From positions 62,001-126,000 of the forward strand of contig NZ_JAUHPV010000004.1 in assembly GCF_030418315.1 (NCBI RefSeq): DNA of 64,000 nucleotides, read 5' to 3'. This stretch comes from Demequina zhanjiangensis (lineage in GTDB: Bacteria > Actinomycetota > Actinomycetes > Actinomycetales > Demequinaceae). Positions 24,544-45,652 of this stretch are shown piece after piece. The notes under the pieces are model-generated. The model searched no databases. It was given only the letters and a program-made list of their open reading frames with translations, and was not told the origin of the DNA. The position numbers and the translations under genes are program-made. The number at the start of each line of letters is the position of its first letter. The stretch's first letter is position 1.

Positions 24544-24557
24544 GGACCCTAGGTACC
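24544..24557. promoter_or_regulatory. Secondary GGACC-CTA-GGTACC site upstream of pflB
   Basis: A looser inverted repeat 30 bp upstream of the main site, about three helical turns away, as expected for a second dimer of the same regulator. Weak on its own. Confidence 0.35.
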
Positions 24558-24573
24558 GTGGTGAAACGAACCG

Positions 24574-24587
24574 GGGCCAAAGGTCCC
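24574..24587 (+). promoter_or_regulatory. DosR-like activator site of pflB
   Basis: GGGCCAAAGGTCCC. Its centre is 30.5 bp before the putative -10 TATTTT (24611), near -42 of the expected transcript, the class II activator position. It shares AAGGTCCC with sites before the OFA transporter and adhE genes. Compared with the mycobacterial DosR/DevR consensus (GGGACTWWAGTCCC) it matches 11 of 14 positions; the actual regulator is unknown. Confidence 0.6.
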
Positions 24588-24726
24588 GAGAATTAGTGAA
24601 CACGCCGTTCTATTTTGGTTTTGGACATGCGGTCGACCGGACCGTGTGGTCGCAGCCTCGACGGGGTCCAGAACCGCCGGGGAGAGAAGAGGCCTTACCG
24701 GGCCTCGAGCGTGAGGAGTTCCGCCA

Positions 24727-26997
24727 ATGACCATCACTTCCCCCACCGGCGCTGACCTCGACGCCGTCCGCGAGCACGCATGGCGTGGTTTCACGTCCGG
24801 CCCGTGGCGCGACGCGATCAACGTCCGTGACTTCATCCAGCTGAACTACACCCCGTACGACGGCGACGACTCGTTCCTCGCCGGCCCGACGGAGCGCACC
24901 ACGGGTGTGTGGGAGAAGCTGTCGGCGATGTTCCCGGAGGAGCGCGAGAAGGGCGTCTACGACGTCGACTACGAGACCCCGGCCACCATCACCGCGCACA
25001 AGCCCGGCTACATCGACCAGGACAACGAGGTCATCGTCGGCCTCCAGACCGACGCCCCGCTGAAGCGCGCGATCATGCCGTTCGGCGGATGGCGCATGGT
25101 CGTCAAGGAGCTCGAGACCTACGGCTACCCGGTCCTTCCGGAGCTTGAGGAGACCTTCTCCAAGTACCGCAAGACGCACAACGACGGCGTCTTCGACGCG
25201 TACCCCCCGAACGTTCGCGCCGCCCGCTCGTCGCACATCGTCACGGGTCTGCCCGACGCCTACGGTCGCGGCCGCATCATCGGTGACTACCGCCGCGTCG
25301 CCCTCTACGGCGTCGACGCCCTGATCGAGGGCAAGAAGGTCGAGCGCATGTCGCTCGACATGGAGCGCTCCACCGAGGACATCATCCGCGACCGCGAGGA
25401 GAACTCGGAGCAGATCAAGGCTCTGAAGGAGCTCAAGCAGATGGCGGCCTCCTACGGCTTCGACATCTCGGGCCCCGCGACCACCGCCAAGGAGGCCGTG
25501 CAGTGGCTGTACTTCGGCTACCTGGCTGCGGTGAAGGAGCAGAACGGCGCCGCCATGTCGCTGGGCCGCACCTCCACCTTCCTCGACATCTTCATCGAGC
25601 GTGACATCGCCGACGGCACCCTCAACGAGTCCGAGGCGCAGGAGATCATCGACGACTTCGTGATCAAGCTGCGCATCGTCCGCTTCCTCCGCACCCCCGA
25701 GTACGACTCGCTGTTCTCCGGCGACCCGACGTGGGTCACCGAGTCCATCGGCGGCATCGGCACGGACGGTCGCTCGCTCGTGACGCGCACCTCGTTCCGC
25801 TTCCTGCAGACGCTGTACAACATCGGCCCGGCCCCCGAGCCGAACCTCACGGTGCTGTGGAGCGACAAGCTGCCCCAGGGCTTCAAGGAGTACTGCGCCA
25901 AGGTCTCGATCGACACCTCGTCGATCCAGTACGAGGCCGACGACCTGCTCCGCGACCAGTGCGGTGACGACGCGGCGATCGCCTGCTGCGTGTCCGGCAT
26001 GGAGGTCGGCAAGCAGATGCAGTTCTTCGGCGCTCGCGTCAACCTGGCCAAGGGCCTCCTCTACGCGATCAACGGTGGCCGCGACGAGGTCTCCGGCAAG
26101 CAGGTCTCGCCGGTCACCCCGGCGGTCGAGGGCGACGTGCTCGACTTCGACGACGTGATGGCGAAGTTCGACGTCTTCATGGACTGGCTGGCCGAGACGT
26201 ACGTGGACGCGCTGAACTGCATCCACTACATGCACGACAAGTACGCGTACGAGCGCATCGAGATGGCGCTTCACGACCGCGAGATCCTGCGCACCATGGC
26301 CTGCGGCATCGCCGGCCTCTCGGTCGCGACCGACTCGCTCGCCGCCATCAAGTACGCCAAGGTCACGCCGGTTCGCGACGAGACCGGCCTCGTGGTCGAC
26401 TACAAGACCGAGGGCGAGTACCCGGCCTACGGCAACGACGACGACCGTGCGGACGACATCGCGGTGGACCTGGTGCACCGCTTCATGGAGAAGGTGCGCA
26501 AGCAGCCCACCTACCGCAACGCCAAGCACACCCAGTCGGTGCTGACGATCACCTCGAACGTGGTCTACGGCAAGGCGACGGGCAACACGCCCGACGGTCG
26601 CCGCGCCGGCGAGCCCTTCGCCCCGGGTGCCAACCCCATGAACGGCCGCGACAACCACGGCATCATGGCGTCGGCCCTCTCCGTCGCGAAGCTGCCCTAC
26701 GACGACGCTCAGGACGGCATCTCGCTCACCACCTCCGTGGTCCCCTCGGGCCTCGGTCGTGACAAGTCCGAGCAGATCAAGAACCTGGTCGGCGTGCTGG
26801 ACGCCTACACCGTGTCCTCCGGCTTCCACATGAACGTCAACGTGCTCAACCGCGAGACGCTCGAGGACGCCATGGAGCACCCGGAGAACTACCCGCAGCT
26901 CACCATCCGTGTGAGCGGCTACGCGGTGAACTTCGTCCGCCTGACGCGTGAGCAGCAGATGGACGTCCTCTCCCGTACGTTCCACGCGGGCCTGTAA
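24727..26997 (+). CDS. pflB: Pyruvate formate-lyase
   Basis: 756-aa glycyl-radical enzyme converting pyruvate and CoA to acetyl-CoA and formate in anaerobic metabolism. The adjacent active-site cysteines are in AIACCVSGM (Cys420-Cys421) and the radical-bearing glycine in RVSGYAVNF (Gly731), both in the canonical positions relative to a length very close to E. coli PflB (760). Start ATG is near a GAGG (24714-24717). Followed by a strong hairpin and then the activase gene. Probably induced without oxygen through the upstream site. Confidence 0.97.
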
Positions 26998-27010
26998 GAC
27001 AGAATCAGGA

Positions 27011-27047
27011 GCGACGCCCCGCCCCTCGGTGGGCGGGGCGTCGCCCT
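27011..27047 (+). terminator. Terminator/attenuator between pflB and pflA
   Basis: Perfect 14-bp stem GCGACGCCCCGCCC (27011-27024) / GGGCGGGGCGTCGC (27031-27044), loop CTCGGT, followed by CCTTTC. Probably lowers pflA expression relative to pflB, a common arrangement because little activase is needed. Confidence 0.8.
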
Positions 27048-27086
27048 TTCTCCAGACAACTTCGACAAGGCGAGGAGATCCCCACC

Positions 27087-27908
27087 ATGCCTGACGAGCC
27101 CGTCCCCGTACAGCTCCTCACGTCCCCTCCCATGGAGATCGCGGACAAGGAGCTGGAGGACAGCGAGAAGCTCGCGTCACCCCTCACCGGCTCCGTCCAC
27201 TCGTGGGATCTGGTCACCGGCGCGGACGGCCCCGGCACCCGCATGACGCTGTTCATGGCGGGCTGCGGCATGCGCTGCCAGTACTGCCAGAACCCCGACA
27301 CATGGCGCATGCGTGATGGCGTGCGGCACACGGTGGACGAGGTGATGGAGCGCGTCACCCGGTACGCGACCGTCATGAAGGTCACCGGGGGAGGGCTCAC
27401 CATCTCCGGCGGTGAGCCGCTGCTGCAGTCCAAGTTCGTCATGAACGTGTTCCGCCGCTGCAAGGATCTGGACATCCACACGGCGCTGGACACCGCGGGA
27501 CTGCTGGGTTCGCGTCTCACGGACGACGACCTCAACTACGTGGACCTCGTGCTGCTCGACATCAAGTCGGGCATCCCGGAGACGTACAAGCGGGTCACCG
27601 GTCGCCCGCTTCAGCCCACGCTCGACTTCGCCCGGCGTCTGGACGCGCTGGAGAAGAAGGTGTGGATCCGCTTCGTCCTGGTCCCCGGACTCACGGACGC
27701 GGTGGAGAACGTCGACGCCGTCGCCGACTTCGTCGCGACGCTCGGCAACGTCGAGCGGCTCGAGGTCCTCCCGTTCCATCAGCTCGGTCGCGAGAAGTGG
27801 GAGCTGTCCGGCGAGCCGTACCTGCTCGAGGACACGCAACCGCCGAGCAAGGAGCTGATCGAGCGCGTGAAGCAGCAGTTCGCGAAGCGCGGCATCAACG
27901 TGATGTGA
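27087..27908 (+). CDS. pflA: Pyruvate formate-lyase activating enzyme
   Basis: 273-aa radical SAM enzyme that installs the glycyl radical on PflB. The cluster-binding motif is CGMRCQYC (Cys60, Cys64, Cys67), followed by TGGGLTISGGEPLLQ for SAM binding. Slightly longer than E. coli PflA (246) because of an N-terminal extension of about 25 residues. Lies 89 bp after pflB beyond a terminator-like hairpin. Confidence 0.95.
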   Translation: MPDEPVPVQLLTSPPMEIADKELEDSEKLASPLTGSVHSWDLVTGADGPGTRMTLFMAGCGMRCQYCQNPDTWRMRDGVRHTVDEVMERVTRYATVMKVTGGGLTISGGEPLLQSKFVMNVFRRCKDLDIHTALDTAGLLGSRLTDDDLNYVDLVLLDIKSGIPETYKRVTGRPLQPTLDFARRLDALEKKVWIRFVLVPGLTDAVENVDAVADFVATLGNVERLEVLPFHQLGREKWELSGEPYLLEDTQPPSKELIERVKQQFAKRGINVM

Positions 27909-27911
27909 GCC

Positions 27912-27937
27912 AGAGGCGCCCTCCGGGGCGCCTCTTC
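27912..27937 (+). terminator. Terminator of pflA
   Basis: AGAGGCGCC (27912-27920) pairs with GGCGCCTCT (27927-27935), followed by TCTCAT. Immediately after the stop codon. Confidence 0.75.
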
Positions 27938-28162
27938 TCATATGGCCGCCAGCCATGGTTTCCGCAGTCGTGGAACGCCCTCACGTGTTAATTCCTTGTG
28001 ACATGGCCGATTCTCTGCGGATTCGCTTGCTATCGTCGGACCCAAGCAGTGCGTGCCCCGACGCGAGTCCTGCGGGACTCTTGCTCGACGGATCGTGCCA
28101 GGCCGACGACCGTCTTCATGCCACGCATACGCCCGTCGCCAGGCCGGTCGGGTGGAGTAGCC

Positions 28163-29545
28163 ATGGCAATCACGCTTGACCGCACCCGCATCGCGACGCT
28201 CATCGAAGAGCAGACCGCGATGCTCAACGAGCGCACCACCAAGTCCAAGGAGATGTTCGGGCAGGCGTCCGAGCACCTCTCGGGCGGTGTCGCCTCCAGC
28301 TATCAGGGGCGCGACCCCTGGCCCATTTACATCGAGTCCGGCTCCGGCGACCGGATCGTCGACGTGGACGGCAACGAGTACTACGACTTCCACAATGGCT
28401 TCGGCTCGATGGTCCAGGGGCACGCCCACCCGGCCATCGGCGACGCGCTCGCGAAGCGCTACCCGCTCGGCACGCACTTCGCTGCCGCCACCGAGGACTC
28501 GATCGTCGTCGCCGACGAGCTCGCCCGCCGCTGGGGTCTGCCCAAGTGGCGCTTCACGAACTCGGGCTCCGAGTCCACCATGGATGCGATCCGCATCGCC
28601 CGCGCCTTCACCGGCCGCGACACCGTGATGAAGATCTTCGGCAGCTACCACGGTCACCACGACACCGTCATGGTGTCGATCGGCGTGGAGTACGACAAGA
28701 TCGGCGACCGCGAGAACCTCGAGTCGCTCGCCTACGGCGCAGGCATCCCGCAGGCGACCGTCGACATGACCATCGCCGTGCCCTTTAATGACGCCGGCGC
28801 CATGGAGCGCCGCATCGAGCGCCTCGACGCCGAGGGGCGCAAGCCCGCCTGCGTCATCATGGAGGCCGCGATGATGAACCTGGGCGTCGTGCTTCCCGAG
28901 CCTGGCTACCTCGAGGCCGTCCGCGAGATCACCAAGAAGCACGGCATCGTCCTCATCTTCGACGAGGTCAAGACCGGCCTCACCATCGCCCCCGGAGGCG
29001 CCACCGAGAAGTTCGGCGTCACCCCCGATATGGTGACGCTCGCCAAGGCGCTCGGCGGTGGTCTGCCGTCCGGCGCGATCGGCGGCACCGAGGAGGTCAT
29101 GGCGATCGTCGAGGACGGCACCGTCTACCAGGTGGGCACCTACAACGGGAACCCGCTCACCATGGCCGCCGCCCGGGCCTCGCTGCTCGACGTGCTCACC
29201 CCGGCCGCCTACGACCGCCTCGCCGAGCTCAACGACCGCATCGTCAACGGCTGCCAGGCCGTGATCGACAAGTACGACCTGCCCGGCTACGCCGTCGGCA
29301 TCGGCTCCAAGGGGTGCGTCACCTTCGCCACCGAGAAGATCGTGGACTACGAGACCTTCAAGGAGGCGCAGGACGTCGACCTGTGCGAGCTCGCATGGCT
29401 GTGGAACATGAACCACGGCATCTTCATGACCCCGGGCCGCGAGGAGGAGTGGACCATGTCCGTCGTCCACTCCGACGAGTCGGTCGACGCCTACATCGCC
29501 GCGTTCGACTCGCTCGCCGCTGCGCTCACGGAGGCCGACGCCTGA
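28163..29545 (+). CDS. Class III PLP aminotransferase (GSA-aminotransferase-like)
   Basis: 460-aa pyridoxal-phosphate enzyme. The PLP lysine is in LAKALGGGLPSG (Lys295); FTNSGSESTMDAIRIAR, SYHGHHD and IFDEVKTGL are the expected cofactor-site motifs. Closest in style to glutamate-1-semialdehyde aminomutase-like aminotransferases, but no tetrapyrrole genes are near. Its stop overlaps the start of an amine-oxidase-like gene (TGATG), so a role in transamination of an amine or omega-amino acid is more likely. Start ATG 28163 has GGAG five bases upstream; the upstream frame extension is not conserved-looking. Confidence 0.8.
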   Translation: MAITLDRTRIATLIEEQTAMLNERTTKSKEMFGQASEHLSGGVASSYQGRDPWPIYIESGSGDRIVDVDGNEYYDFHNGFGSMVQGHAHPAIGDALAKRYPLGTHFAAATEDSIVVADELARRWGLPKWRFTNSGSESTMDAIRIARAFTGRDTVMKIFGSYHGHHDTVMVSIGVEYDKIGDRENLESLAYGAGIPQATVDMTIAVPFNDAGAMERRIERLDAEGRKPACVIMEAAMMNLGVVLPEPGYLEAVREITKKHGIVLIFDEVKTGLTIAPGGATEKFGVTPDMVTLAKALGGGLPSGAIGGTEEVMAIVEDGTVYQVGTYNGNPLTMAAARASLLDVLTPAAYDRLAELNDRIVNGCQAVIDKYDLPGYAVGIGSKGCVTFATEKIVDYETFKEAQDVDLCELAWLWNMNHGIFMTPGREEEWTMSVVHSDESVDAYIAAFDSLAAALTEADA

Positions 29546-30942
29546 TGACTGCCGAGGCCTCCCGCACCACTGTCTTCGAACGCGAACCCGCCGACCCCGC
29601 GGTGGTGCGGGAGGCCCTCAGCGGCTCCCGCCTTGCTCCCTTCTGGCTCGACGGCGTCGAACGCCCCGAGCACCCGCCCCTGTCAGGACTCGAGGTGGCC
29701 GACCTGGTCATCGTCGGCGGCGGCTACGCCGGCCTGTGGACCGCTGTGCTCGCCAAGGAGCGCAACCCTGAGACGCGCGTCGTCCTGCTGGAGGGCGAGC
29801 TGATCGGCTGGGCGGCGTCCGGCCGCAACGGCGGCTTCTGCGAGGCCAGCCTCACGCACGGCCGCGAGAACGGCGAGAGCCGCTGGCCCGACGAGATCGA
29901 CAGGCTCGACGAGCTCGGCCTCGAGAACCTCGACGAGATCGAGGCGACCGTCGCGAAGTACGGCATGGACGTCGACTTCGAGCGCACCGGGCAGCTGAGC
30001 GTCGCCGTCGAGCCGCACCAGGTGGAGTGGCTCGAGGAAGGCTCGCTCGACGCCGACGGCGTCCGCGCCCTGGTCGACTCGCCCACCTATCTGGGCGGCG
30101 AGCTGGACACCGAAGGCTGCGCGATGGTGCACCCCGGCAAGCTCGCGCTCGAGCTGGCCCGCGTGGCAGTCGAGCTGGGCGTCGTCATCCACGAGCGGTC
30201 CGCCGTCACCGAGCTGACCGACAACGGCGTGCGCACCGGCAGGGGAGAGGTGCACGCGGCGAAGACCGTGCTCGCCACGAACGTCTTCCCGTCGCTGCTC
30301 AAGCGCAACTCGCTCATGACGGTGCCCGTCTACGACTACTCGCTCATGACCGAGCCGCTCACGCCCGAGCAGCTCGCCTCGATCGGCTGGGACGGCCGCT
30401 ACGGCATCGCCGACATGGGCAACCAGTTCCACTACTACCGGCTCACCGCGGACAACCGGATCCTCTTCGGCGGGTACGACGCGATCTACCACCCCGGCCG
30501 CAAGGTCAAGGGGGCGTACGAGGACCGTCCCGAGTCCTACGCGAAGTTGATGAGCCACCTGCTCACCACCTTCCCGCAGCTCGAAGGCATCCGAATCTCG
30601 CACCGCTGGGCCGGAGCGATCGACACGTGCACCCGCTACTGCGCGTACTTCGGCACCGCGCGCAAGGGGAAGGTTGCCTACACGGCGGGCTTCACCGGGC
30701 TGGGTGTCGGGGCGACGCGCTTCGCCGCGAACGTGATGCTCGACCTGCTCGCGGGCGAGGACACCGAGCGCACGCGGCTCCAGATGGTGAAGGAGCGGCC
30801 GCTGCCGTTCCCGCCCGAGCCCGTCGCGGCGATCGGCATCGGCATGACCCAGTGGTCGCTCAACCAGGCCGACCACCGCGAGGGACGGCGCAACATCCTG
30901 CTGCGCACCCTCGACCGCTTCGGCCTGGGCTTCGACTCGTGA
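29545..30942 (+). CDS. FAD-dependent amine oxidase (PuuB/DAO family)
   Basis: 465-aa flavoprotein of the D-amino-acid oxidase fold. FAD-binding motif LVIVGGGYAGLW (Gly58, Gly60, Gly63), then AASGRNGGFCEA, which resembles gamma-glutamylputrescine oxidase-like enzymes, and HRWAGAIDTCTRY near the C-terminus. Expected to oxidise an amine or N-substituted amino acid to an aldehyde with H2O2 release. Lies between the aminotransferase and a cupin gene with 1- and 4-base overlaps, a single translational unit; GABA genes follow after the island, so polyamine catabolism is a reasonable guess. Confidence 0.82.
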   Translation: MTAEASRTTVFEREPADPAVVREALSGSRLAPFWLDGVERPEHPPLSGLEVADLVIVGGGYAGLWTAVLAKERNPETRVVLLEGELIGWAASGRNGGFCEASLTHGRENGESRWPDEIDRLDELGLENLDEIEATVAKYGMDVDFERTGQLSVAVEPHQVEWLEEGSLDADGVRALVDSPTYLGGELDTEGCAMVHPGKLALELARVAVELGVVIHERSAVTELTDNGVRTGRGEVHAAKTVLATNVFPSLLKRNSLMTVPVYDYSLMTEPLTPEQLASIGWDGRYGIADMGNQFHYYRLTADNRILFGGYDAIYHPGRKVKGAYEDRPESYAKLMSHLLTTFPQLEGIRISHRWAGAIDTCTRYCAYFGTARKGKVAYTAGFTGLGVGATRFAANVMLDLLAGEDTERTRLQMVKERPLPFPPEPVAAIGIGMTQWSLNQADHREGRRNILLRTLDRFGLGFDS

Positions 30943-31286
30943 CGACGCTGGAGCCGGGCGGCGTGATCCGCGCGGCCTCGCTGCCGGTGCCCCTGGAGGC
31001 GCTGCCGCATGCACAGGTCGAGGCCGGGGCGCCGCGGGCCGGCTCTGTCGCTCTCGCGGCGTTCGAGGGGCTCGAAGTTGGGGTGTGGGAGCACACCCCG
31101 GGCGTCAGCACCGACGTGGAGATCGACGAGGTCTTCGTGGTGCTCTCCGGGGCCGCGCGCATCGACATGGTCGAGCCTGAAGGCGAATCGCTTGAGGTCG
31201 GTCCCGGTGACGTGGTGCGGCTCGTGGCCGGCCAGCGCACGCGCTGGACGGTGACGGAGACGTTGAGGAAGATCTACCTGGCCTGA
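30939..31286 (+). CDS. Small cupin-domain protein
   Basis: 115 aa, single cupin barrel: DEVFVVLSGAARIDM and LEVGPGDVVRLVAGQRTRW are cupin motifs 1 and 2. The motif-1 His residues that normally bind metal are largely absent, so it may be non-catalytic or use another ligand set. GTG start overlaps the oxidase stop (GTGA). Cupins of this size often accompany amine-oxidase genes. Confidence 0.78.
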   Translation: MTTLEPGGVIRAASLPVPLEALPHAQVEAGAPRAGSVALAAFEGLEVGVWEHTPGVSTDVEIDEVFVVLSGAARIDMVEPEGESLEVGPGDVVRLVAGQRTRWTVTETLRKIYLA

Positions 31287-31371
31287 GTTCTGTCCCCAGG
31301 AACCCCTCAGCGGCGTCGAGTCTGAGTAGCCTTGTCGCAGGGGCGGGAATGCACGACAGGGGGTTCAGAGG

Positions 31372-31638
31372 ATGGTCACGGCGCCTAGCAAGAGGTATCG
31401 GCAGGTCGACGACACGGGACTTGTGTGGACGCACCGTCTTCACCTCGCCCTCACGGCTCTCTGGGTGCTTCTGGCGGCGTACGTGTGGGCTTCCGAGTGG
31501 TCGGACTGGATCGGGCTGGCGCTGCTGACCTGCGCGAGCGTCGTCGGTGTCGGTTCCAATGGCTACCTGGCACTCAAATCGAAGCAGGAGATCGACCGTC
31601 GCCGAGCTCACGGCCCGTCTATGCACGTAGTCGAGTAG
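31372..31638 (+). CDS. Small two-helix membrane protein
   Basis: 88 aa with two hydrophobic segments (about 24-42 and 46-66) separated by SEWSDW, and charged ends. AGAGG precedes the ATG. No known family. It is the first gene after the amine operon and at the edge of the low-G+C island, so it may belong to the inserted DNA. Confidence 0.5.
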   Translation: MVTAPSKRYRQVDDTGLVWTHRLHLALTALWVLLAAYVWASEWSDWIGLALLTCASVVGVGSNGYLALKSKQEIDRRRAHGPSMHVVE

Positions 31639-31769
31639 CGCTTCACGGCTTCCCATGGACAAGGGAGGGGCGGGCATGCTGGTTAGGCGCCAATCCGCCC
31701 GGTCGCGTACACACGGGCACACGGGTGGGTCGCCTGCTGGGCACCGGATGCTCTCGACATGATGATTGC

Positions 31770-37236: not shown

Positions 37237-37254
37237 GGACGCAGTCTGCCACCG

Positions 37255-37281
37255 TGTACAGAGATGCGCACCACTTTGTAC
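37255..37281. promoter_or_regulatory. Paired TGTAC elements between pucR and gabT
   Basis: TGTAC at 37255-37259 and 37277-37281, 22 bp apart, same orientation (GTGTACA and TTGTACG in context). Placed upstream of the gabT -10 (TAGGCT, 37315-37320), a plausible activator site for the divergent PucR protein. A short motif, so moderate support only. Confidence 0.35.
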
Positions 37282-37327
37282 GCCGTGGCGAATGAGTCTC
37301 CCGCAACCCATGCCTAGGCTCGCCGCT

Positions 37328-38689
37328 ATGAGCACCCTTGAGGCATCCGCCGTCCCCCTCGGTGGGCCGGCCCTGGCGCAGGAGCGCCGACTCGTCACGT
37401 CCATCCCCGGTCCCCGCTCGCAGGAGCTGCTCGACCGGAAGGCGCAGGCGGTGCCCCGCGGCGTCGGCCACACCGCCCCGATCGCGGCGGTCGCCGCCGG
37501 TGGTGGCGTCGTCGTCGATGCCGACGGCAACTCGCTGATCGACCTCGGCTCCGGCATCGCCGTGACCTCCGTGGGCAACGCCCACCCTGCCGTCGTCAAG
37601 GCGGTCCAGGACCAGGTTGCGCAGTTCACCCACACCTGCTTCATGGTGTCCCCGTACGAGGGCTACGTGGCCGTCGCCGAGGCGCTCAACAGCCTCACGC
37701 CCGGCGACTTCGAGAAGCGCACCGCGCTGTTCAACTCGGGCGCCGAGGCCGTCGAGAACGCGATCAAGATCGCCCGCCACCACACCGGCCGCTCGGCCGT
37801 CGCCGCGTTCGACCACGCGTACCACGGCCGCACCACGCTCACGATGACGCTCACGGCCAAGGCGATGCCCTACAAGACCGGCTTCGGTCCCTTCGCCCCC
37901 GAGGTCTACCGCGCCCCGATGTCGTACCCCTACCGCGACGGGCTGAGCGGCAAGGCCGCCGCCGCCCGCGCCATCTCGGTGCTGGAGAAGCAGGTGGGAG
38001 GCGACCAGCTGGCCGCCGTCATCATCGAGCCGATCCAGGGCGAAGGCGGCTTCATCGTCCCGGCCGACGGCTTCCTGCCCACCATCCAGGCATGGGCCAA
38101 CGAGAAGGGCATCGTCGTCATCGCCGACGAGGTCCAGAGCGGATTCGCCCGCACCGGCACGATGTTCGCCTCCGAGCATTTCGGCTTCATGCCCGACCTG
38201 GTCACCACCGCCAAGGGCATCGCCGGCGGCATGCCCCTCGCGGCCGTCACCGGCCGCGCCGAGATCATGGACTCCGCCCACCCCGGCGGCCTCGGCGGCA
38301 CCTACGGCGGCAACCCCGTCGCCTGCGCCGCCGCGCTCGCGACCATCGAGGTCTTCGAGACCGAGAACCTCTCCGCGCGGGCTGCCGCACTCGGCGCCCT
38401 CATGCGCGACCGCCTCGAAGCGCTCCAGTCCAGCGACCCCCGCGTCGGCGAGGTTCGCGGGCTCGGCGCCATGATGGCCATCGAGCTCGTCGAGCCGACC
38501 ACCGGAGAGCCCGCCCCCGCCGTCGCCGGCGCTGTCGCCAAGGCGGCCATCGCTCAGGGCGTCATCGTGCTCACGTGCGGCACCTACGGCAACGTGCTCC
38601 GCTTCCTGCCGCCGCTGTCCATCTCCGACGAGCTGCTCGTCGAAGGCCTCACCGTCGTCGGCAAGGCCCTCGCGGAGGTGCAGGCATGA
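37328..38689 (+). CDS. gabT: 4-aminobutyrate aminotransferase
   Basis: 453-aa class III aminotransferase. PLP lysine in TTAKGIAGGMPLAA (Lys296), FNSGAEAVENAIKIAR and IEPIQGEGGFIVP are GabT signatures. Converts GABA and 2-oxoglutarate to succinate semialdehyde and glutamate. No Shine-Dalgarno; TAGGCT ends 7 bases before the ATG, so the transcript is probably leaderless. Its stop overlaps the start of the semialdehyde dehydrogenase gene, matching the pathway order. Confidence 0.93.
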   Translation: MSTLEASAVPLGGPALAQERRLVTSIPGPRSQELLDRKAQAVPRGVGHTAPIAAVAAGGGVVVDADGNSLIDLGSGIAVTSVGNAHPAVVKAVQDQVAQFTHTCFMVSPYEGYVAVAEALNSLTPGDFEKRTALFNSGAEAVENAIKIARHHTGRSAVAAFDHAYHGRTTLTMTLTAKAMPYKTGFGPFAPEVYRAPMSYPYRDGLSGKAAAARAISVLEKQVGGDQLAAVIIEPIQGEGGFIVPADGFLPTIQAWANEKGIVVIADEVQSGFARTGTMFASEHFGFMPDLVTTAKGIAGGMPLAAVTGRAEIMDSAHPGGLGGTYGGNPVACAAALATIEVFETENLSARAAALGALMRDRLEALQSSDPRVGEVRGLGAMMAIELVEPTTGEPAPAVAGAVAKAAIAQGVIVLTCGTYGNVLRFLPPLSISDELLVEGLTVVGKALAEVQA

Positions 38690-40149
38690 GCGCCACCGAG
38701 AAGGCAGTCCTGGACGCCGTCCCCACCGGCCTGTTCCTCGGCGGCGAGTGGGTCGCCTCCTCCACCGGAGCGACGTTCGAGGTTCGCGACCCGGCCACCG
38801 GTGACGTGCTCACCTCCGTGGCCGACGCGAGCCCCGAGGACGGCGTCCGCGCGCTCGACGCCGCTGCCGCCGCTCAGGACGAGTGGGCCGCCACCGCGCC
38901 CCGAGTCCGCGCCGAGATCCTCCGCAAGGCGTTCGACCTGGTGCAGGAGCGCAAGGAGGAGCTCGCGCTGCTCATGACGCTCGAGATGGGCAAGCCGCTG
39001 GCCGAGGCCAGGGGGGAGGTCGCCTACGGCGGCGAGTTCCTCCGCTGGTTCTCCGAGGAGGCCGTCCGCATCTCCGGCCGCTACGGGCTCAACCCCGAGG
39101 GCACCGGCCGCATGGTCGTCTCCCAGCGCCCCGTCGGCCCCAGCTACCTCATCACCCCGTGGAACTTCCCGCTCGCGATGGCGACCCGCAAGATCGCGCC
39201 GGCGCTCGCCGCCGGCTGCACCGTCGTGGTCAAGCCCGCAGCCCTGACCCCGCTCACCACGCTCGCGATGGTGGGCATCCTCGAGGAGGCCGGCGTCCCC
39301 GCGGGCGTGGTCAACGTCATCACGACCACCAGCTCGCGCGGCGTCACCGAGCCCCTGCTCGCAGACCCGCGCCTCAAGAAGCTGTCCTTCACCGGCTCCA
39401 CCGAGGTGGGCCAGGGGCTCATCCGTCAGGCCGCCGACCGCGTCCTCCGCGTCTCCATGGAGCTGGGCGGCAACGCGCCGTTCGTCGTCTTCGAGGACGC
39501 CGACCTGGACAAGGCCGTCGAGGGTGCCCTCATGGCCAAGTTCCGCAACATCGGCCAGGCCTGCACCGCCGCCAACCGCTTCATCGTCCACAAGGACGTC
39601 GCCGACGAGTTCGCCGCGAAGGTCACCGAGCGCGTCACCGCGATGCGCATCGGCCGCGGCACCGAGGACGGCGTCACCATCGGCCCGCTCATCGACGACC
39701 GCGCCGTCGAGTCCTCGCTCGCCCTCGTGGCCGACGCCGTGGACCGCGGCGCGACGGTCACCACCGGCGGCGCCGCGATCGACGGCCCCGGCAGCTTCCT
39801 CGCGCCCACCGTCCTGACCGACGTGAAGGCAGGCAGCGAGATTCTCCGCGAGGAGATCTTCGGCCCCGTGCTCGCCATCGCGACGTTCGAGGCCGAGGAC
39901 GAGGCTGTCGCGCTCGCTAACGCCACCGACTACGGGCTCGTGTCCTACGTCTTCACCGAGGACCTGGCCCGCGGCCACCGCATGATCGACCGGCTCGACA
40001 CGGGGATGATGGGCCTCAACGCAGGCGTCGTCTCCAACGCGGCTGCGCCGTTCGGCGGCGTCAAGCTCTCGGGCCTGGGTCGCGAAGGCGGCCTCGAAGG
40101 CATCCACGAGTACCTGTCCACGAAGTACACGCTGATCCCGGTCAGCTGA
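38686..40149 (+). CDS. gabD: Succinate-semialdehyde dehydrogenase
   Basis: 487-aa aldehyde dehydrogenase of the GabD group. Catalytic Cys293 in NIGQACTAANRF, general base Glu in MELGGNAPFVVF, and cofactor motif FTGSTEVGQGL. Oxidises succinate semialdehyde from GabT to succinate with NAD(P)+. ATGA overlap with gabT. Confidence 0.93.
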   Translation: MSATEKAVLDAVPTGLFLGGEWVASSTGATFEVRDPATGDVLTSVADASPEDGVRALDAAAAAQDEWAATAPRVRAEILRKAFDLVQERKEELALLMTLEMGKPLAEARGEVAYGGEFLRWFSEEAVRISGRYGLNPEGTGRMVVSQRPVGPSYLITPWNFPLAMATRKIAPALAAGCTVVVKPAALTPLTTLAMVGILEEAGVPAGVVNVITTTSSRGVTEPLLADPRLKKLSFTGSTEVGQGLIRQAADRVLRVSMELGGNAPFVVFEDADLDKAVEGALMAKFRNIGQACTAANRFIVHKDVADEFAAKVTERVTAMRIGRGTEDGVTIGPLIDDRAVESSLALVADAVDRGATVTTGGAAIDGPGSFLAPTVLTDVKAGSEILREEIFGPVLAIATFEAEDEAVALANATDYGLVSYVFTEDLARGHRMIDRLDTGMMGLNAGVVSNAAAPFGGVKLSGLGREGGLEGIHEYLSTKYTLIPVS

Positions 40150-40179
40150 CCGCAGCACCACCACCAAAAGAGGAGAAGC

Positions 40180-41547
40180 ATGACCGCCTACGCCGTCGTC
40201 AACCCCGCCACCGGGGAGACGCTCGCCACGTACCCGACCATGACCGACGCCGAGGTGGAGGAGGCGCTCGCCAAGGCCGAGGGCGCCTACCGCGGCTGGT
40301 CCCGCAACTCGACGCCCGCCGAGCGCGCCGCACTGATCCGCAAGGTCGCGGAGCTCCACCGTGAGCGCCGCGACGAGCTCGCCGCGATCATCGTGCGCGA
40401 GATGGGCAAGCCGCTGTCCCACGCCTACGGCGAGGTGGACTTCGCGGCAGACATCACCGAGTACTACGCCGACCAGATCGACAAGATCACCGGCGACACC
40501 CCGCTCGACATCCTGGGCGAGGGCACCGCCGTGGTGCGTCGCGCCCCGATCGGCGTGCTGCTCGGCATCATGCCGTGGAACTTCCCCTACTACCAGGTCG
40601 CTCGCTTCGCCGCGCCGAACATTGCGGTGGGCAACACGATCATCCTCAAGCACGCGCCGCAGTGCCCCGAGTCCGCCGCCGCGATCGAGCAGATGTACCT
40701 GGACGCCGGCTTCCCCGAGGGCGCCTACGTGAACGTGTACGCCACGAACGAGCAGGCTGCGGACTTCATCGCCGACCCGCGCGTCCAGGGCGTCTCCGTC
40801 ACCGGCTCGGAGCGTGCGGGCTCGGCCGTCGCTGCGCTCGCGGGCAAGCACCTCAAGAAGGTCGCGCTCGAGCTGGGAGGCTCGGACCCGTTCATCGTGA
40901 TGTCCACCGACGACATGGACGCCGTGGTCGCCGGAGCGCTCGAGGCGCGCATGGACAACTCCGGTCAGTCCTGCAACGCCCCCAAGCGCTTCATCATCAT
41001 CGACTCGCTGTACGAGGAGTTCGCGGAGAAGTTCACCGCGGCCGTCGCGGGCACCGTCGCCGGCGACCCGTTCGCCGAGGGGTCGGACATCGGCCCGCTG
41101 TCCTCTCTGCTCGCCGCGGAGCGCCTCCAGGCGCAGGTGGACCGCGCGGTGGAGCAGGGGGCGACGCTGGTGACGGGCGGCGTGCGCACGGGCGCCTTCT
41201 ACTCGCCGACGGTCCTGGCCGACGTCACGAAGGACATGGACGTCTACAAGGAGGAGCTCTTCGGCCCCGCGTCGACGCTGTACAAGGTGTCGTCGGAGGA
41301 AGAGGCCCTCGAGCTCGCGAACGACACCGGCTACGGCCTCGGCTCGTACGTGTACACGACCGACCCGGAGCAGGCCGACCGTATGGCGAACGGAATCGAC
41401 GCGGGCATGGTCTACGTCAACTGCGTCCTGGCGGACAGCCCCGAGCTTCCGTTCGGCGGCGTGAAGCGGTCCGGCACCTCGCGTGAGATGGGCCTGCTCG
41501 CGGCCGACGAGTTCGTCAACAAGAAGCTCGTGCGCGTCGCGCCGTAG
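40180..41547 (+). CDS. Second succinate-semialdehyde-type aldehyde dehydrogenase (Sad-like)
   Basis: 455-aa aldehyde dehydrogenase, shorter than GabD and of the Sad/GabD2 type. Catalytic Cys265 in NSGQSCNAPKRF; Glu in LELGGSDPFIVM; PWNFPYYQVARF is typical of this subgroup. RBS AGAGGAGAAGC directly before the ATG. Two semialdehyde dehydrogenases in tandem suggest different cofactors (NADP versus NAD) or substrates such as other omega-amino aldehydes. Confidence 0.88.
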   Translation: MTAYAVVNPATGETLATYPTMTDAEVEEALAKAEGAYRGWSRNSTPAERAALIRKVAELHRERRDELAAIIVREMGKPLSHAYGEVDFAADITEYYADQIDKITGDTPLDILGEGTAVVRRAPIGVLLGIMPWNFPYYQVARFAAPNIAVGNTIILKHAPQCPESAAAIEQMYLDAGFPEGAYVNVYATNEQAADFIADPRVQGVSVTGSERAGSAVAALAGKHLKKVALELGGSDPFIVMSTDDMDAVVAGALEARMDNSGQSCNAPKRFIIIDSLYEEFAEKFTAAVAGTVAGDPFAEGSDIGPLSSLLAAERLQAQVDRAVEQGATLVTGGVRTGAFYSPTVLADVTKDMDVYKEELFGPASTLYKVSSEEEALELANDTGYGLGSYVYTTDPEQADRMANGIDAGMVYVNCVLADSPELPFGGVKRSGTSREMGLLAADEFVNKKLVRVAP

Positions 41548-41568
41548 CGTGCGCGGCGGCGCGGACGG

Positions 41569-41599
41569 TTGACGCAACATATACCCCCTGGGGTATAGT
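41569..41599 (+). promoter_or_regulatory. Rhodanese promoter with embedded CsoR/CstR-like operator
   Basis: TTGACG (41569-41574), 19-bp spacer, TATAGT (41594-41599). The near-perfect palindrome TATACCCCCTGGGGTATA (41580-41597) fills the spacer and overlaps the -10. This form, TATACCCC..GGGGTATA, is the type bound by CsoR-family repressors (Cu(I)-sensing CsoR, persulfide-sensing CstR). Position predicts direct repression. Confidence 0.75.
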
Positions 41600-41606
41600 T
41601 TCCGTC

Positions 41607-42038
41607 ATGAAGAAGCACATCGTCCGCGCCGCCTTCGCCGGCGCCCTGCTGACCCTGGCCGTTCCCGCGCTCACCGCCTGCTCGTCCGACGACGCTGCCG
41701 TGGTGGAGCCCGCCGACGTCGTCTTCGACGCGTCGCACGTCGACTCCTCGATGTTCGCCGCCGCCACCGAGGTGGACGGCGTCACGATCATCGACGTCCG
41801 CACGCCTGCCGAGTTCGCCGAGGGCCACCTGCCTGGCGCGGTCAACATCGACGTGAGCGCCGCGACGTTCGCGGACGAGATCGCGCAGCTCGACCCCGAC
41901 GCCGACTACGCCGTGTACTGCCGCTCGGGCAACCGCTCACGCGCAGCGATCGAGACCATGCAGGGCGCAGGCTTCGCCGCGCTGATCGGCCTCGAGGGCG
42001 GCATCGGCGCGTGGGGCGGCGAGGTCGTCACCGGCTGA
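41607..42038 (+). CDS. Rhodanese-domain lipoprotein
   Basis: 143 aa. Lipoprotein signal peptide with lipobox LTAC (Cys about 25) then a single rhodanese domain: TIIDVRTPAEFAEGHLPGA and active-site loop YCRSGNRSRA with Cys105. The loop length matches sulfur-transferring rhodaneses. Anchored outside the membrane, it may handle sulfane sulfur or thiosulfate. Promoter contains a CsoR/CstR-like operator, consistent with persulfide stress control. Confidence 0.9.
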   Translation: MKKHIVRAAFAGALLTLAVPALTACSSDDAAVVEPADVVFDASHVDSSMFAAATEVDGVTIIDVRTPAEFAEGHLPGAVNIDVSAATFADEIAQLDPDADYAVYCRSGNRSRAAIETMQGAGFAALIGLEGGIGAWGGEVVTG

Positions 42039-42056
42039 CCCCCACCACCCTCTGTA

Positions 42057-42096
42057 CGCCCCGGCCTGCTCCCTCCCCTTCCCGCAGGCCGGGGCG
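42057..42096 (+). terminator. Terminator after rhodanese gene
   Basis: Perfect 13-bp stem CGCCCCGGCCTGC (42057-42069) / GCAGGCCGGGGCG (42084-42096), loop of 14 pyrimidine-rich bases. Could also end the convergent small gene. Confidence 0.7.
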
Positions 42097-42120
42097 GACT
42101 GCTTTCAGGCTTCGGCGGCT

Positions 42121-42408
42121 TCAGACGCTGCGGTCGCTCCATCGCGGGTCCCACGCGCCATCCGCCTTCAGCTCGTCGCGGAGGCGCCGGAAGTGCTCGC
42201 GTCCGTGCGTGCGCTTCTGCTGCCGGATCCAGCGGTCGAACTCGCGGAAGTCGCGCTCGGGGTTGAAGGCGAAGCGGTCGTCGGCCTGAATCATCCACGA
42301 GCGCTGCTCGAAGCCGCGCTCCCAGCGTCGGTCCTCGCGCCGCTCGCGCCGCTCCTCGTGGTGCACCGCGATCACGTCGCGCCATTCGGCGAGCATGCCC
42401 TGTCGCAT
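42121..42408 (-). CDS. Small charged protein, unknown
   Basis: 95 aa, strongly charged and rich in Arg, Asp and Trp (WRDVIAVHHEERRERREDRR), predicted helical and soluble. AAGGGGG lies before the ATG at 42408. No known family; composition suggests nucleic-acid or protein binding, but that is a guess. Chosen over the longer overlapping frame because its composition is natural. Confidence 0.55.
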   Translation of the reverse strand: MRQGMLAEWRDVIAVHHEERRERREDRRWERGFEQRSWMIQADDRFAFNPERDFREFDRWIRQQKRTHGREHFRRLRDELKADGAWDPRWSDRSV

Positions 42409-42716
42409 CAGAAGCCCCCTTCATCTGTTGCTGCGCCGCCGCCCCCCGGCGAGCGAACGCCCTGTCTCCCGCCGTGTGAGCGTGGCGCCCACGAATTGGT
42501 ACGGGAAACGCTGATATTTCACACCTGATGCAGCGTTGTCAAGGGATTTCGGCCTGCGACACGCGGTGTCTCCTTCGACTGTGGCGTCGAGGGGCCAGAA
42601 TCCGGACCAAGGTCCCTGCGTTCTCACTCCCGGAACCAGGAATATGGGGCTCAGCGGAGCAACGATGCTCGAGCGTCCCCCGTTCGCGGCGCGTTGCTCC
42701 CGAAGGGAGAACAACG
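42409..42716. other. Regulatory region upstream of the OFA transporter
   Basis: 308 bases without a supported gene. Contains the AAGGTCCC-type activator site (42603-42616), a putative -10 AATATG (42641-42646) and GAAGGGAGA as ribosome binding site before the start at 42717. The start of the minus-strand small gene is at its left edge. Confidence 0.55.
42603..42616 (+). promoter_or_regulatory. DosR-like activator site of the OFA transporter gene
   Basis: CGGACCAAGGTCCC; inner GGACC-AA-GGTCC is a perfect inverted repeat. Its centre is 31.5 bp before the putative -10 AATATG, the same geometry as at pflB and adhE. Confidence 0.6.
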
Positions 42717-44105
42717 ATGTCCATCCTTGACCGCGAACGCACCGTCGCCCCGCCCGGCTACAACCGCTGGCTCGTGCCCCCGGCAGCGCTCGCCGTCCAC
42801 CTGAGCATCGGCCAGGTGTACGCCTACTCCGTCCTCAAGGACGCGCTCCGAGACCGCTTCGACGCCTCGCACACGCAGGTCGGGATCATCTTCTCGATCT
42901 CGATCGTGATGCTCGGCCTCTCCGCCGCGTTCGGCGGCCGCTGGATGGAGCGCAACGGCCCGCGCAAGACCATGGTGATCTCCGCGGCGGCCTGGTCGAG
43001 CGGCTTCGCGATCGCCGCGCTGGGCGTCTCGATGGATCAGCTCTGGGTCGTCTACCTGGGCTACGGCTTCATCGGAGGCATCGGCCTCGGGCTCGGCTAC
43101 ATCTCGCCCGTGTCGACGCTGATCAAGTGGTTCCCGGACCGTCCCGGCCTGGCCACGGGCCTGGCGATCATGGGCTTCGGTGGCGGCGCGATGCTCGCAG
43201 CCCCGCTCACCCAGTACATGCTCAGCTCCTACTCCGCGACCGAGGCCGACTCGCTGGTTCCGACCTTCCTCACCCTGGGTGCCATGTACGGATGCCTGAT
43301 GCTGCTGGGCGCCGCCGTCGTCCGCGTGCCTCCCAAGGGCTACGTCCCTGAGGGGTGGGTGCCGTCCGAGCACGTCTCGAAGGTGTCGAGCGGCGGCCAG
43401 GTGAGCGCGAAGAACGCGATCAAGACGTTCCCGTTCTGGATGCTGTGGCTCGTGCTGTTCACGAACGTCACCGCCGGCATCGGCATCCTCGAGAACGCCA
43501 AGCCGATGATCGAGGACTACTTCCCGGCCGTGTCCGCGGCGGCCGCCGCAGGATTCGTCGGGCTGCTGTCCCTGGCCAACATGGGCGGCCGCATCGGCTG
43601 GTCGAGCTTCTCCGACGTGATCGGGCGCAAGGCCACGTACATCATGTACCTGGGCGTCGGCGCCGTCGCCTACACCTCCGTCGCGCTCTTCGGCCCGGCG
43701 AACCTGGTGCTGTTCGTGCTGCTCGTGGTGCTGATCATCTCGTTCTACGGCGGAGGCTTCGCCACGATCCCGGCCTACCTCAAGGACGTGTTCGGCGAGT
43801 TCGAGGTAGGTGCCATCCACGGTCGGCTGCTCACCGCATGGTCGGCCGCCGGTGTGGCGGGCCCGCTCATCATCAACGGCCTGCTCGACCTGCTCGAGGG
43901 CCAGGGGCTCAGCGGCGCCGACCTCTACCGCCCCTCGATGCTCGTGATGGTCGGCATCCTCCTGGTCGGCTTCGTCGCCAACCTCCTGGTGCGTCCGGTC
44001 AGCCAGAAGTGGCACGAGGCCGACGACGCGGTGCCTGACCACGAGCTCCACCACACCGCAGACAGCGACGCGCCCGCATTCGCGGCCGCGGGGAAGGAGT
44101 CCTGA
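42717..44105 (+). CDS. OFA-family MFS transporter (oxalate/formate antiporter-like)
   Basis: 462-aa major facilitator with 12 predicted helices. GQVYAYSVLKDALRDRF near the first helix and GFGGGAMLAAPLTQ in the middle fit the oxalate/formate antiporter (OFA) group. Start ATG 42717 has GAAGGGAGA upstream; the upstream frame extension is spurious. Shares a putative anaerobic activator site with pflB and adhE, so export or exchange of formate or another fermentation acid is likely. Followed by a 43-aa partner gene after 3 bp. Confidence 0.85.
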   Translation: MSILDRERTVAPPGYNRWLVPPAALAVHLSIGQVYAYSVLKDALRDRFDASHTQVGIIFSISIVMLGLSAAFGGRWMERNGPRKTMVISAAAWSSGFAIAALGVSMDQLWVVYLGYGFIGGIGLGLGYISPVSTLIKWFPDRPGLATGLAIMGFGGGAMLAAPLTQYMLSSYSATEADSLVPTFLTLGAMYGCLMLLGAAVVRVPPKGYVPEGWVPSEHVSKVSSGGQVSAKNAIKTFPFWMLWLVLFTNVTAGIGILENAKPMIEDYFPAVSAAAAAGFVGLLSLANMGGRIGWSSFSDVIGRKATYIMYLGVGAVAYTSVALFGPANLVLFVLLVVLIISFYGGGFATIPAYLKDVFGEFEVGAIHGRLLTAWSAAGVAGPLIINGLLDLLEGQGLSGADLYRPSMLVMVGILLVGFVANLLVRPVSQKWHEADDAVPDHELHHTADSDAPAFAAAGKES

Positions 44106-44108
44106 GCC

Positions 44109-44240
44109 ATGGCTGACAAGAGCAGTTCCACCAGCGGGTCCAACCCGCTCGCCTATGTGCTGTGGGCGCTGGTCGTCTCCGGCCTCGTCTACGGCGTCAG
44201 CATGACCGCGATCCGCGCCGCGGCGCTGTTCACGGGCTGA
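44109..44240 (+). CDS. MFS transporter small subunit
   Basis: 43 aa, one membrane helix (PLAYVLWALVVSGLVYGVSM) with a Ser-rich N-terminus. It starts 3 bp after the stop of the OFA transporter. Very small single-helix proteins annotated as MFS small subunit are typically found next to OFA transporters, and this fits in size and position. Too short for automatic gene callers. Confidence 0.75.
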   Translation: MADKSSSTSGSNPLAYVLWALVVSGLVYGVSMTAIRAAALFTG

Positions 44241-44253
44241 CAGTTCGCCTTCG

Positions 44254-44287
44254 CTGATGCCCTGGCCCTGAGCGGTCAGGGCATCAG
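44254..44287. terminator. Terminator after MFS small subunit
   Basis: Perfect 11-bp stem CTGATGCCCTG (44254-44264) / CAGGGCATCAG (44277-44287), 12-base loop, between convergent genes. Confidence 0.75.
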
Positions 44288-44340
44288 TGCGTCTGGGCCC
44301 GCTCGGCTTCAGCGGGACGGGCCGACGCTCCGCCCGAGGA

Positions 44341-45357
44341 TCAGGCGGCCGGGCCGGGAGGCGTGGGCTCGGGGCTGGTGAGCTCGCCGCGTCGGGCGGC
44401 GATGATCGTGCGCACCGCCATGGCCGCCACGAGCATGGTGGCCGCAGCCAGCGATACGGCGCCGACCCACTCCCACCAGGCCGCACCGTCGGCCGTCTGA
44501 AGGAAGGCGCGCGACGCGGCGGCCAGGGGGAAGGTGTACGCCCACGCGGAGACCGCCCAGGGGGCCTTCCGGAGCGAGCGGCTCTGCACCAGGAGGAGGC
44601 ACACCTGGAACAGGGTGACGCCCAGCAGGATGCGGGCTGCAGGGTCGTCCCAGGAGCCGCCCAGGCGCACCCACGCGAGGCTCGCGACCGCCGGGGGAGC
44701 GACGAGGATCGCGAGCGTCGGTGCGAGACGCGGCGGGATGACGCCGGCGGTGAAGAGGCGCGCCAGGACCACGGGCAGCAATCCCAGCCAGTAGACGATG
44801 CCGACGCCGAAGAAGAGCCAGCTCAGATCCGCGTCGGCGTGCTCGACGCCCGCGAGCGGCACGACCAGGTTGCCGACCACGGGGATGAACCAGGCGGGGT
44901 GGATGTGCGTCTGGGTGATGGTCGCGTCGGCGATCCAGCGGTGCATGACGTACAGCGTGACCGCCGCCTGCAGCGTCGCGCCGACTGCCCACAGCCCGAA
45001 GGAGAGGCCCTCCTGGACCTCGAGCAGCGCCGTCGCGGTCACGAGCGCGCCGATAGGGACCGTGGCGATGAAGGCCGCCTTGACCGGGTGGGTGGCCTCG
45101 GCGCGCACGGCGGCGGGGTGAAGGATCGCCTTCGCTGCGTAGGCGACAGTGGCCAGGGCGAGCGCTCCGAGCGCGACCCAGGCGAGCGTCTCTCCGGTCG
45201 CGGCCGGAAGGTCCCAGCGGTGCGCGGCGCCCTGCCATGCGAGTGCCAGTCCGCCGATGCCCATGACGGAGGCGAAGATGCCCACCGGGAGGTGCTGAAG
45301 GCCTGGGCCGGTGGGGGACTGCGGTGCCGCGGGTGCGTCGGCGGGGGCTGCGGTCAT
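44341..45357 (-). CDS. TDT/SLAC1-family membrane transporter
   Basis: 338 aa, about ten membrane helices. Features such as LPVGIFASVMGIGGLALAW at the N-terminus and HPAWFIPVVGNLVVPLAG in the middle are those of the tellurite-resistance/dicarboxylate transporter (TDT, TehA/Ssu1/SLAC1) family. Start ATG 45357 has AGGAG upstream; the longer frame to 45552 runs through the promoter. The operator it shares with the rhodanese gene makes sulfite or other sulfur-anion export (Ssu1-like) an attractive role; C4-dicarboxylate or tellurite-type transport is the alternative. Confidence 0.82.
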   Translation of the reverse strand: MTAAPADAPAAPQSPTGPGLQHLPVGIFASVMGIGGLALAWQGAAHRWDLPAATGETLAWVALGALALATVAYAAKAILHPAAVRAEATHPVKAAFIATVPIGALVTATALLEVQEGLSFGLWAVGATLQAAVTLYVMHRWIADATITQTHIHPAWFIPVVGNLVVPLAGVEHADADLSWLFFGVGIVYWLGLLPVVLARLFTAGVIPPRLAPTLAILVAPPAVASLAWVRLGGSWDDPAARILLGVTLFQVCLLLVQSRSLRKAPWAVSAWAYTFPLAAASRAFLQTADGAAWWEWVGAVSLAAATMLVAAMAVRTIIAARRGELTSPEPTPPGPAA

Positions 45358-45383
45358 GGGGTTCTCCTGGGATCTGGCCACTC

Positions 45384-45404
45384 TTCTATACCCCCGAGGG
45401 TATA
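45384..45404 (-). promoter_or_regulatory. CsoR/CstR-like operator of the TDT gene
   Basis: TATACCCCCGAGGGTATA (45387-45404) differs from the rhodanese operator only in the two central bases. On the minus strand it overlaps TATAGA (45389-45384), a -10 box for the TDT gene, the same arrangement as at the rhodanese promoter. Confidence 0.72.
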
Positions 45405-45510
45405 CGCCGACGCGCAGCGATGTGCGTCGAACCGGGCAGGACGGTCGGCTGTCGCCCCTTGAGCGACACCTGTCCAACAGGCTTCGGAACCGTGTGAATG
45501 CGCTGGAAAA

Positions 45511-45527
45511 ATACCCCCTAGGGGATG
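45511..45527. promoter_or_regulatory. Third CsoR/CstR-like palindrome
   Basis: ATACCCCCTAGGGGATG, with CCCCTAGGGG a perfect 10-bp palindrome but without the full outer TATA arms. It lies between the TDT and adhE promoters, about 120 bp from each, and could cooperate with the nearby TDT operator or act on adhE. Confidence 0.5.
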
Positions 45528-45559
45528 CAAAAGGCCTGGTATTTAGGCCCATGGTCCCC

Positions 45560-45573
45560 GGGACCTTGGCACC
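45560..45573 (-). promoter_or_regulatory. DosR-like activator site of adhE
   Basis: GGGACCTTGGCACC, which on the other strand reads GGTGCCAAGGTCCC. Centre is 30.5 bp before the putative -10 TACACT (45597-45602). A second inverted repeat GGTCCC-C-GGGACC (45553-45565) overlaps it. Confidence 0.58.
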
Positions 45574-45652
45574 GAGCAGACCGCGTTGATCCCCCTTACA
45601 CTTCTAAGTGTCGGGACCCGATGGGGGAACCCGGTAGAGGAGAGAGTGAAAG

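Follow-up and report, generated by a model that had tools for sequence, protein, structure and literature searches.

The window and its boxes

We analyzed a 64-kb stretch of DNA from Demequina zhanjiangensis (positions 62,001 to 126,000 of contig NZ_JAUHPV010000004.1; hereafter, the window). Three of its promoters, which lie before pflB, a transporter gene, and adhE, carry a similar 14-bp box at the same distance from a predicted -10 element. The genes behind these boxes, in window coordinates and with their protein family scores, are:

24727 to 26997, plus strand: pflB, formate C-acetyltransferase (pyruvate formate-lyase); TIGR01255, 1187.9 bits, cut-off 994.2
27087 to 27908, plus strand: pflA, pyruvate formate-lyase activating enzyme; TIGR02493, 310.7 bits, cut-off 231.75
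42717 to 44105, plus strand: major facilitator superfamily (MFS) transporter, L-lactate type (OFA-related); above the cut-off of NF049980 (327.9 versus 320, NCBIfam)
45653 to 48394, plus strand: adhE, bifunctional acetaldehyde-CoA/alcohol dehydrogenase; NF010378, 1372.9 bits, cut-off 951

pflA is probably co-transcribed with pflB. A preliminary description of this DNA had called the transporter an OFA transporter. It is indeed an OFA-related MFS protein, but it fell below the cut-off of the oxalate/formate family model (TIGR00890, 182.7 versus 374.85, NCBIfam) and passed that of the L-lactate model.

The promoter elements, all read on the plus strand, are:

24544 to 24557, plus strand: second, weaker box-like site GGACCCTAGGTACC, which precedes the pflB box (motif score, 11/14)
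24574 to 24587, plus strand: DosR-type box GGGCCAAAGGTCCC of the pflB promoter (motif match; conserved in relatives)
24611 to 24616, plus strand: predicted -10 of pflB, TATTTT, 23 nucleotides (nt) past the box (TAnnnT is kept at this distance)
42603 to 42616, plus strand: DosR-type box CGGACCAAGGTCCC of the transporter promoter (motif match; relatives)
42640 to 42645, plus strand: predicted weak -10 of the transporter gene, GAATAT (nAnnAT is kept 23 nt past the box)
45545 to 45558, plus strand: upstream box of the adhE pair, AGGCCCATGGTCCC (motif match; relatives)
45560 to 45573, plus strand: promoter-proximal adhE box GGGACCTTGGCACC (motif match; relatives)
45597 to 45602, plus strand: predicted -10 of adhE, TACACT, 23 nt past the proximal box (relatives)

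We scanned both strands of the window for boxes that match GGGACCWWGGTCCC at 11 or more of 14 positions and that have A and T at the -10 positions 23 nt further on (+23). This gave exactly three sites, at pflB, the MFS transporter, and adhE, and no others. They are the sites at 24574–24587, 42603–42616, and 45560–45573 from which the preliminary description had started. The gap from the end of the box to the -10 is exactly 23 nt at each, which places the center of the box 30.5 bp before the first base of the -10 in all three promoters; the range first given, 30.5–31.5 bp, can be narrowed accordingly. If transcription starts about 7 nt after the -10, then the boxes would be centered near -42.5. 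By eye, none of the three promoters has a good -35 hexamer at 16–19 bp from the -10. At adhE, two boxes adjoin each other (45545–45558 and 45560–45573).

In 100 dinucleotide shuffles of the window, boxes of at least 12/14 with A..T at the -10 positions occurred 0.04 times on average (maximum 1). The earlier argument that such a recurrence is unlikely by chance therefore stands for the box together with its -10. It does not stand for the half-site AAGGTCCC, which is uninformative on its own because further copies lie at 4737, 45208, and 47966. (On the reverse strand, the adhE box GGGACCTTGGCACC reads as two differing bases and then AAGGTCCC.) The informative unit is the 14-bp near-palindrome, whose conserved columns are GGGnCnWWGGTCCC.

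Box and spacing are conserved among relatives

Among named records, those with the highest pflB identity are Demequina (86 and 84%). For pflB and adhE, we examined the 30 best loci each, from 44 and 43 matching genomes, respectively; for the transporter, we used 16 of 19 loci and left out three partial ones. The counts for these three genes include the window's own locus. At pflB, TAnnnT lies exactly at +23 from the best-scoring box in 28 of the 30 loci, and any other offset was seen at most once; the maximum at any offset in 1,000 shuffles was three. At adhE, 28 of the 30 loci likewise have TAnnnT at +23 from a box that scores 10/14 or more, and 29 have paired sites of at least 10/14 with starts 14–16 bp apart (pairs were read by eye). 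The weaker transporter -10, nAnnAT, is kept at +23 in 13 of 16 loci (shuffle maximum, three). Outside the window, a box of at least 12/14 precedes cydA in all 19 loci that hold this gene (20 regions were fetched), and several of these have a TAGTTT-like -10 about 24 nt after the box, as judged by eye.

A genome-wide motif scan had been suggested as a check. In 44 Demequina genomes, the pattern GGGNCNWWNGNCCC-N23-TANNNT has 141 matches, as compared to five for the reversed pattern and four if N23 is replaced by N18. Three of the loci with an 18-nt gap are alike: at G011:C1:149955, G026:C10:48328, and G030:C10:154722, the box and TAnnnT lie within TTTACGGT. These are possibly promoters with another box spacing.

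We examined the downstream genes for 115 of the 141 matches. (The other 26, sorted by hand, are 25 matches at pflB or adhE loci and one at a contig edge.) In 104 cases, a reading frame starts within 500 bp downstream; in the other 11, there was no clear frame within 500 bp, which is the greatest distance that the filter allowed. Downstream proteins were grouped by BLAST linkage, and the family scan covered some members alone (10 proteins, one member per group). The larger groups are VanZ-like proteins (18 loci, mixed), a Pyr_redox_2 flavoprotein (13), and carboxymuconolactone-decarboxylase/AhpD-like proteins (8), and the smaller ones are the transhydrogenase PntA (3), a formate channel (2), and NrdD (1). 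Overall, the box marks further redox, respiratory, or anaerobic genes beyond the three in the window. The largest group, the VanZ-like membrane proteins (L227, L229, L282, L286, and related loci), would be unexpected in an anaerobic regulon and may be partly an artefact of BLAST linkage.

Boxes in the genome of D. zhanjiangensis

We also searched the genome from which the window comes (3.13 Mb in 18 contigs, 69% G+C). The bare 14-mer, with up to two mismatches and no -10 required, has 79 sites versus 62 for the reversed pattern, so we rejected it as a genome-wide marker; the signal emerges only with the fixed -10 spacing. The two strict matches to GGGNCNWWNGNCCC-N23-TANNNT are at pflB and at a gene without a Pfam match that looks ATP-grasp-like by eye. 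If one mismatch is allowed, adhE is among the matches. The transporter is outside the GGGNCNWWNGNCCC count because its box has C as its first base, and its -10 does not supply the required T.

Boxes with at most one mismatch adjoin cydA (two boxes) and genes for a lactate/malate dehydrogenase, an NDH-2-like protein, OsmC, an old-yellow-enzyme-like protein, an iron alcohol dehydrogenase (box at one mismatch), and a PHO4-family phosphate transporter. Among these, the old-yellow-enzyme-like gene has TACCGT at +23, and the others that were checked have no TAnnnT there. No universal-stress protein was found among the products scanned downstream of boxes. There are four perfect copies of the box in this genome. 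Three perfect GGGACCWWGGTCCC sites lie before the PHO4-family transporter (G000:C11:482728), OsmC (G000:C15:1434), and an ArsR-type/UvrD-type pair (G000:C15:93530); none of them has TAnnnT at +23, and the ArsR side has GACGAT there.

A DosR-like regulator beside a GAF-GAF kinase

The genome has 15 matches to the GerE domain, and we translated 11 of these frames. One of them, on contig C4 (15866–16483, minus strand), encodes a response regulator with Response_reg and GerE domains. Its best match in the PDB is DevR (3c3w, E = 3.9e-42), which is the same protein as DosR of Mycobacterium tuberculosis; NarL scored E = 6.4e-30. Lys179, Lys182, and Asn183, the base contacts of DosR (PMC4082495), align with identical residues, and the motif that holds them, KTVKN, is found in this frame and in none of the other 10. 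In the alignment, the phosphoacceptor of DosR (Asp54 in PMC3029386), in the sequence lDvRLPDG, lines up with the Asp of sDLRLPDG. With a limit of E = 1e-40, the regulator was found in 45 of 47 genomes of the family, in one case as a partial match. Its gene sits behind fpg, and there was no box of at least 11/14 upstream of it (C4 16484–18214) that could serve autoregulation. The likely regulator of the boxes is this DosR-like protein. The window itself encodes a LuxR/NarL-type response regulator (58870–59724), which we dropped as a candidate activator; its recognition helix reads TVKTHI, not KTVKN.

The gene convergent with the regulator (C4 14235–15869) encodes a histidine kinase with two GAF domains, HisKA_3, and HATPase. 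The best PDB matches of its first GAF domain are GAF-A chains of DevS, and its His118 and Tyr140 align with His149 (proximal) and Tyr171 (distal) of DevS, as named in PMC4082495. The gene order is cydA, cydB, two genes for ABC transporters (presumably cydD and cydC), and the kinase. Because the kinase gene follows the boxed cyd cluster, it is probably part of its own regulon. Gene order also suggests that feedback would run through the sensor, since the kinase lies behind the cyd boxes and the regulator lies behind fpg without a box. Of 30 Demequina loci, 27 have a kinase match adjacent to the regulator, as do four of six sister loci from other genera (L353–L356, from Cellulomonas and Jonesia).

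Phylogeny of the regulator: a sister clade of DosR

We built a tree of 39 proteins, in which the Demequina regulator clusters with proteins from Cellulomonas, Jonesia, and Georgenia (support 96/92). Proteins of the KTVKNY type, from Isoptericola, Cellulosimicrobium, Microbacterium, and Cryobacterium, lie outside this clade. A classical-type protein from Isoptericola matches DevR at E = 3.7e-76, as compared to 3.9e-42 for the Demequina regulator, and Cellulomonas terrae has both types. Given the separate clade and the PDB scores, we withdrew the idea that the regulator is DosR itself, that is, an orthologue. The tree instead places it in a sister clade of DosR. (Matches at E = 1e-55 or better were found in 93 of 248 genomes sampled from the order, which is a count by score limit and not by tree.)

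The clade tracks the pflB box. In 18 genomes outside Demequina, a pflB box with TAnnnT at 22–23 nt was present in six of the six genomes with the sister clade and in one of the 12 without it, namely Cryobacterium frigoriphilum (Fisher test, 3.8e-4, counting a Cellulomonas box with 22-nt spacing, L149, as positive; boxes were sought within set score limits). In two pflB regions from Cellulosimicrobium, the boxes score 13/14 and 14/14, and TAnnnT is absent at +23.

In Streptomyces and other filamentous actinomycetes (L165–L193), GGGnC-n4-GnCCC occurs in the 300 bp before pflB in 14 of 26 loci, as compared to 1.5 expected from shuffles. (The loci were grouped by hand; L150 and the non-actinomycete loci L183, L192, L203, L208, L210, and L214 were left out, and L195 has a shorter flank, so that the wrong 300 bp was taken there.) Because no TAnnnT was found at +23 among the sites listed, we do not claim the same promoter layout for these bacteria. 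The pflB upstream sequences suggest that DosR/OsdR-type control of this gene may extend beyond Demequina with other spacings.

Proposed mechanism

We consider it likely, with good though not full confidence, that a DosR-like two-component system uses the three sites as binding boxes to turn on fermentation at low oxygen. The GAF-GAF kinase would bind haem via the conserved histidine and would lose oxygen at low tension. It would then phosphorylate the convergently encoded NarL/LuxR-type response regulator. The regulator would bind the near-palindrome GGGnCnWWnGnCCC, centered about 42.5 bp before the start and overlapping the -35 region, and would recruit the sigma-A-type polymerase to a TAnnnT-like -10 that lacks a good -35. 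The targets would be pflB, adhE, the lactate-type transporter, and the cyd cluster.

In known DosR promoters, the proximal box lies over the -35, often accompanied by another one, and DosR reportedly acts on SigA promoters (PMC5360333, PMC3029386). Because the layout here resembles theirs, a class II activator, rather than a repressor, is the likely reading. Overall, the earlier interpretation of one motif with one spacing, in a class II-like position relative to the predicted -10s and resembling the DosR/DevR box, is supported. Our refinement concerns the likely regulator, which on phylogenetic grounds belongs to the sister clade.

Several observations weigh against this reading. The relatives are not independent samples, and the shuffles ignore relatedness. 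In the D. zhanjiangensis genome, the strict pattern has only two matches, and with one mismatch allowed there are 11, versus three for the reversed pattern. In the kinase, Glu87 and His89 of DevS are not kept (Asn and Leu are found there). No kinase was found within the 1,500-base flank at three Demequina loci (L085, L086, and L088) or at the short Cellulomonas septica locus (L352), and the Georgenia locus (L351) has only a partial kinase match beside the regulator. Cryobacterium frigoriphilum lacks a sister-clade regulator, though it carries a KTVKN regulator of the other type, and yet its pflB promoter has a box at +23 (10/14). Conversely, Microbacterium radiodurans has a KTVKNH regulator just outside the clade (L357), and no pflB box was found there. 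The -10 of several known DosR promoters departs from TANNNT (PMC5360333). Finally, the reported consensus of the DevR-like regulator PolR differs (PMC6754071), so the binding site cannot be deduced from likeness to DevR.

Another regulator, such as another LuxR/NarL-type protein, might instead read the boxes, with the DosR-like pair controlling something else. There are 15 GerE-domain matches to choose from, and in one Demequina genome (G042; 210 contigs, 97% complete), the pflB and adhE boxes persist though no match to the DosR-like regulator reached E = 1e-40, which also counts against our proposal. We nevertheless think that this alternative is unlikely: the DosR contact residues are confined to one of the 11 translated frames, the box has the DosR/OsdR architecture (the consensus of OsdR is AGGGCCGATCGGCCCT; PMC5069765), and across 18 other genomes, the regulator clade and the pflB box go together in all but one case.

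We give far less credence to the idea that the sites belong to a fermentation regulator of the FNR/CRP or Rex type. FNR sites (TTGAT-N4-ATCAA) are A+T-rich and unrelated to the Demequina box, and Rex sites are of the TTGTGAA type. The box, GGGnCnWWGGTCCC, is unlike either, and its conserved columns in the three promoters do not match a TTGAT-N4-ATCAA-type site; this is a comparison of sites alone, and no search for FNR/CRP-type or Rex genes was made. The attraction of this idea is that FNR, in Escherichia coli and its relatives, is tied to the anaerobic expression of pyruvate formate-lyase and alcohol dehydrogenase (PMC4601167), although it is an unrelated type of regulator. Chance, in the form of a G+C-rich near-palindrome that recurs in a 69% G+C genome and is read together with A..T strings that resemble a -10, could account for the weak enrichment of the bare motif (79 versus 62), but it is already contradicted by the scans and shuffles (four perfect copies genome-wide, 141 versus four or five control matches once the spacing is required, and position-specific conservation at three genes), and we consider it negligible.

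Comparison to known systems

The proposed system is most like DosR/DevR with DosS/DosT from M. tuberculosis. Both have a NarL-type regulator with equivalents of Lys179, Lys182, and Asn183; a GAF-GAF-HisKA_3 kinase with equivalents of His149 and Tyr171; a GGGnC-n4-GnCCC box over the -35 (as placed by the predicted -10 and start in our case); and paired boxes at some promoters. They differ in that the Demequina regulator is from a sister clade, its kinase gene follows the cyd genes, and the boxes lie before fermentation and respiratory genes. Also, DevR is autoregulated (PMC3029386), whereas the Demequina regulator gene has no box of at least 11/14 upstream.

OsdR/OsdK of Streptomyces coelicolor shares the palindrome architecture, AGGGCCGATCGGCCCT, and OsdK retains most of the oxygen-sensing residues of DosT (PMC5069765). 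In contrast to the Demequina boxes, the predicted targets of OsdR are stress, nitrate, and other genes; they include pyruvate phosphate dikinase, and a zinc alcohol dehydrogenase is co-transcribed with a target (PMC5069765). The words "formate" and "fermentation" do not occur in the main text of that paper. PolR/PolS of Microlunatus phosphovorus is also a DevR/DevS-like pair and is linked to aerobic-anaerobic shifts, but its reported consensus is a direct repeat, GTTCACnnnnnGTTCaC, and its targets are phosphate genes (PMC6754071).

Among the literature matches listed (titles and the starts of abstracts, with subscription papers mostly outside the coverage), none links pflB or adhE to a regulator of the DosR type, and none gives an account of how these actinobacteria switch to fermentation. 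Nor is such a link made in the available text of PMC5069765, PMC6754071, PMC5360333, PMC6448022, PMC3029386, PMC4082495, or PMC4601167.

Implications

More broadly, we lean toward the view that a second, unnamed DosR-type lineage is the FNR-equivalent of facultatively anaerobic actinobacteria. It would directly control mixed-acid fermentation and cytochrome bd. The gene for its haem sensor kinase would lie downstream of the cytochrome bd genes that it induces, which would create a feedback loop via the sensor. If this is true, then the mycobacterial dormancy system has a sister lineage that is used for fermentation in facultative anaerobes, and there would be a concrete, testable regulator for fermenting bacteria of the Cellulomonas type. 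One oxygen sensor would have been reused for two life styles.

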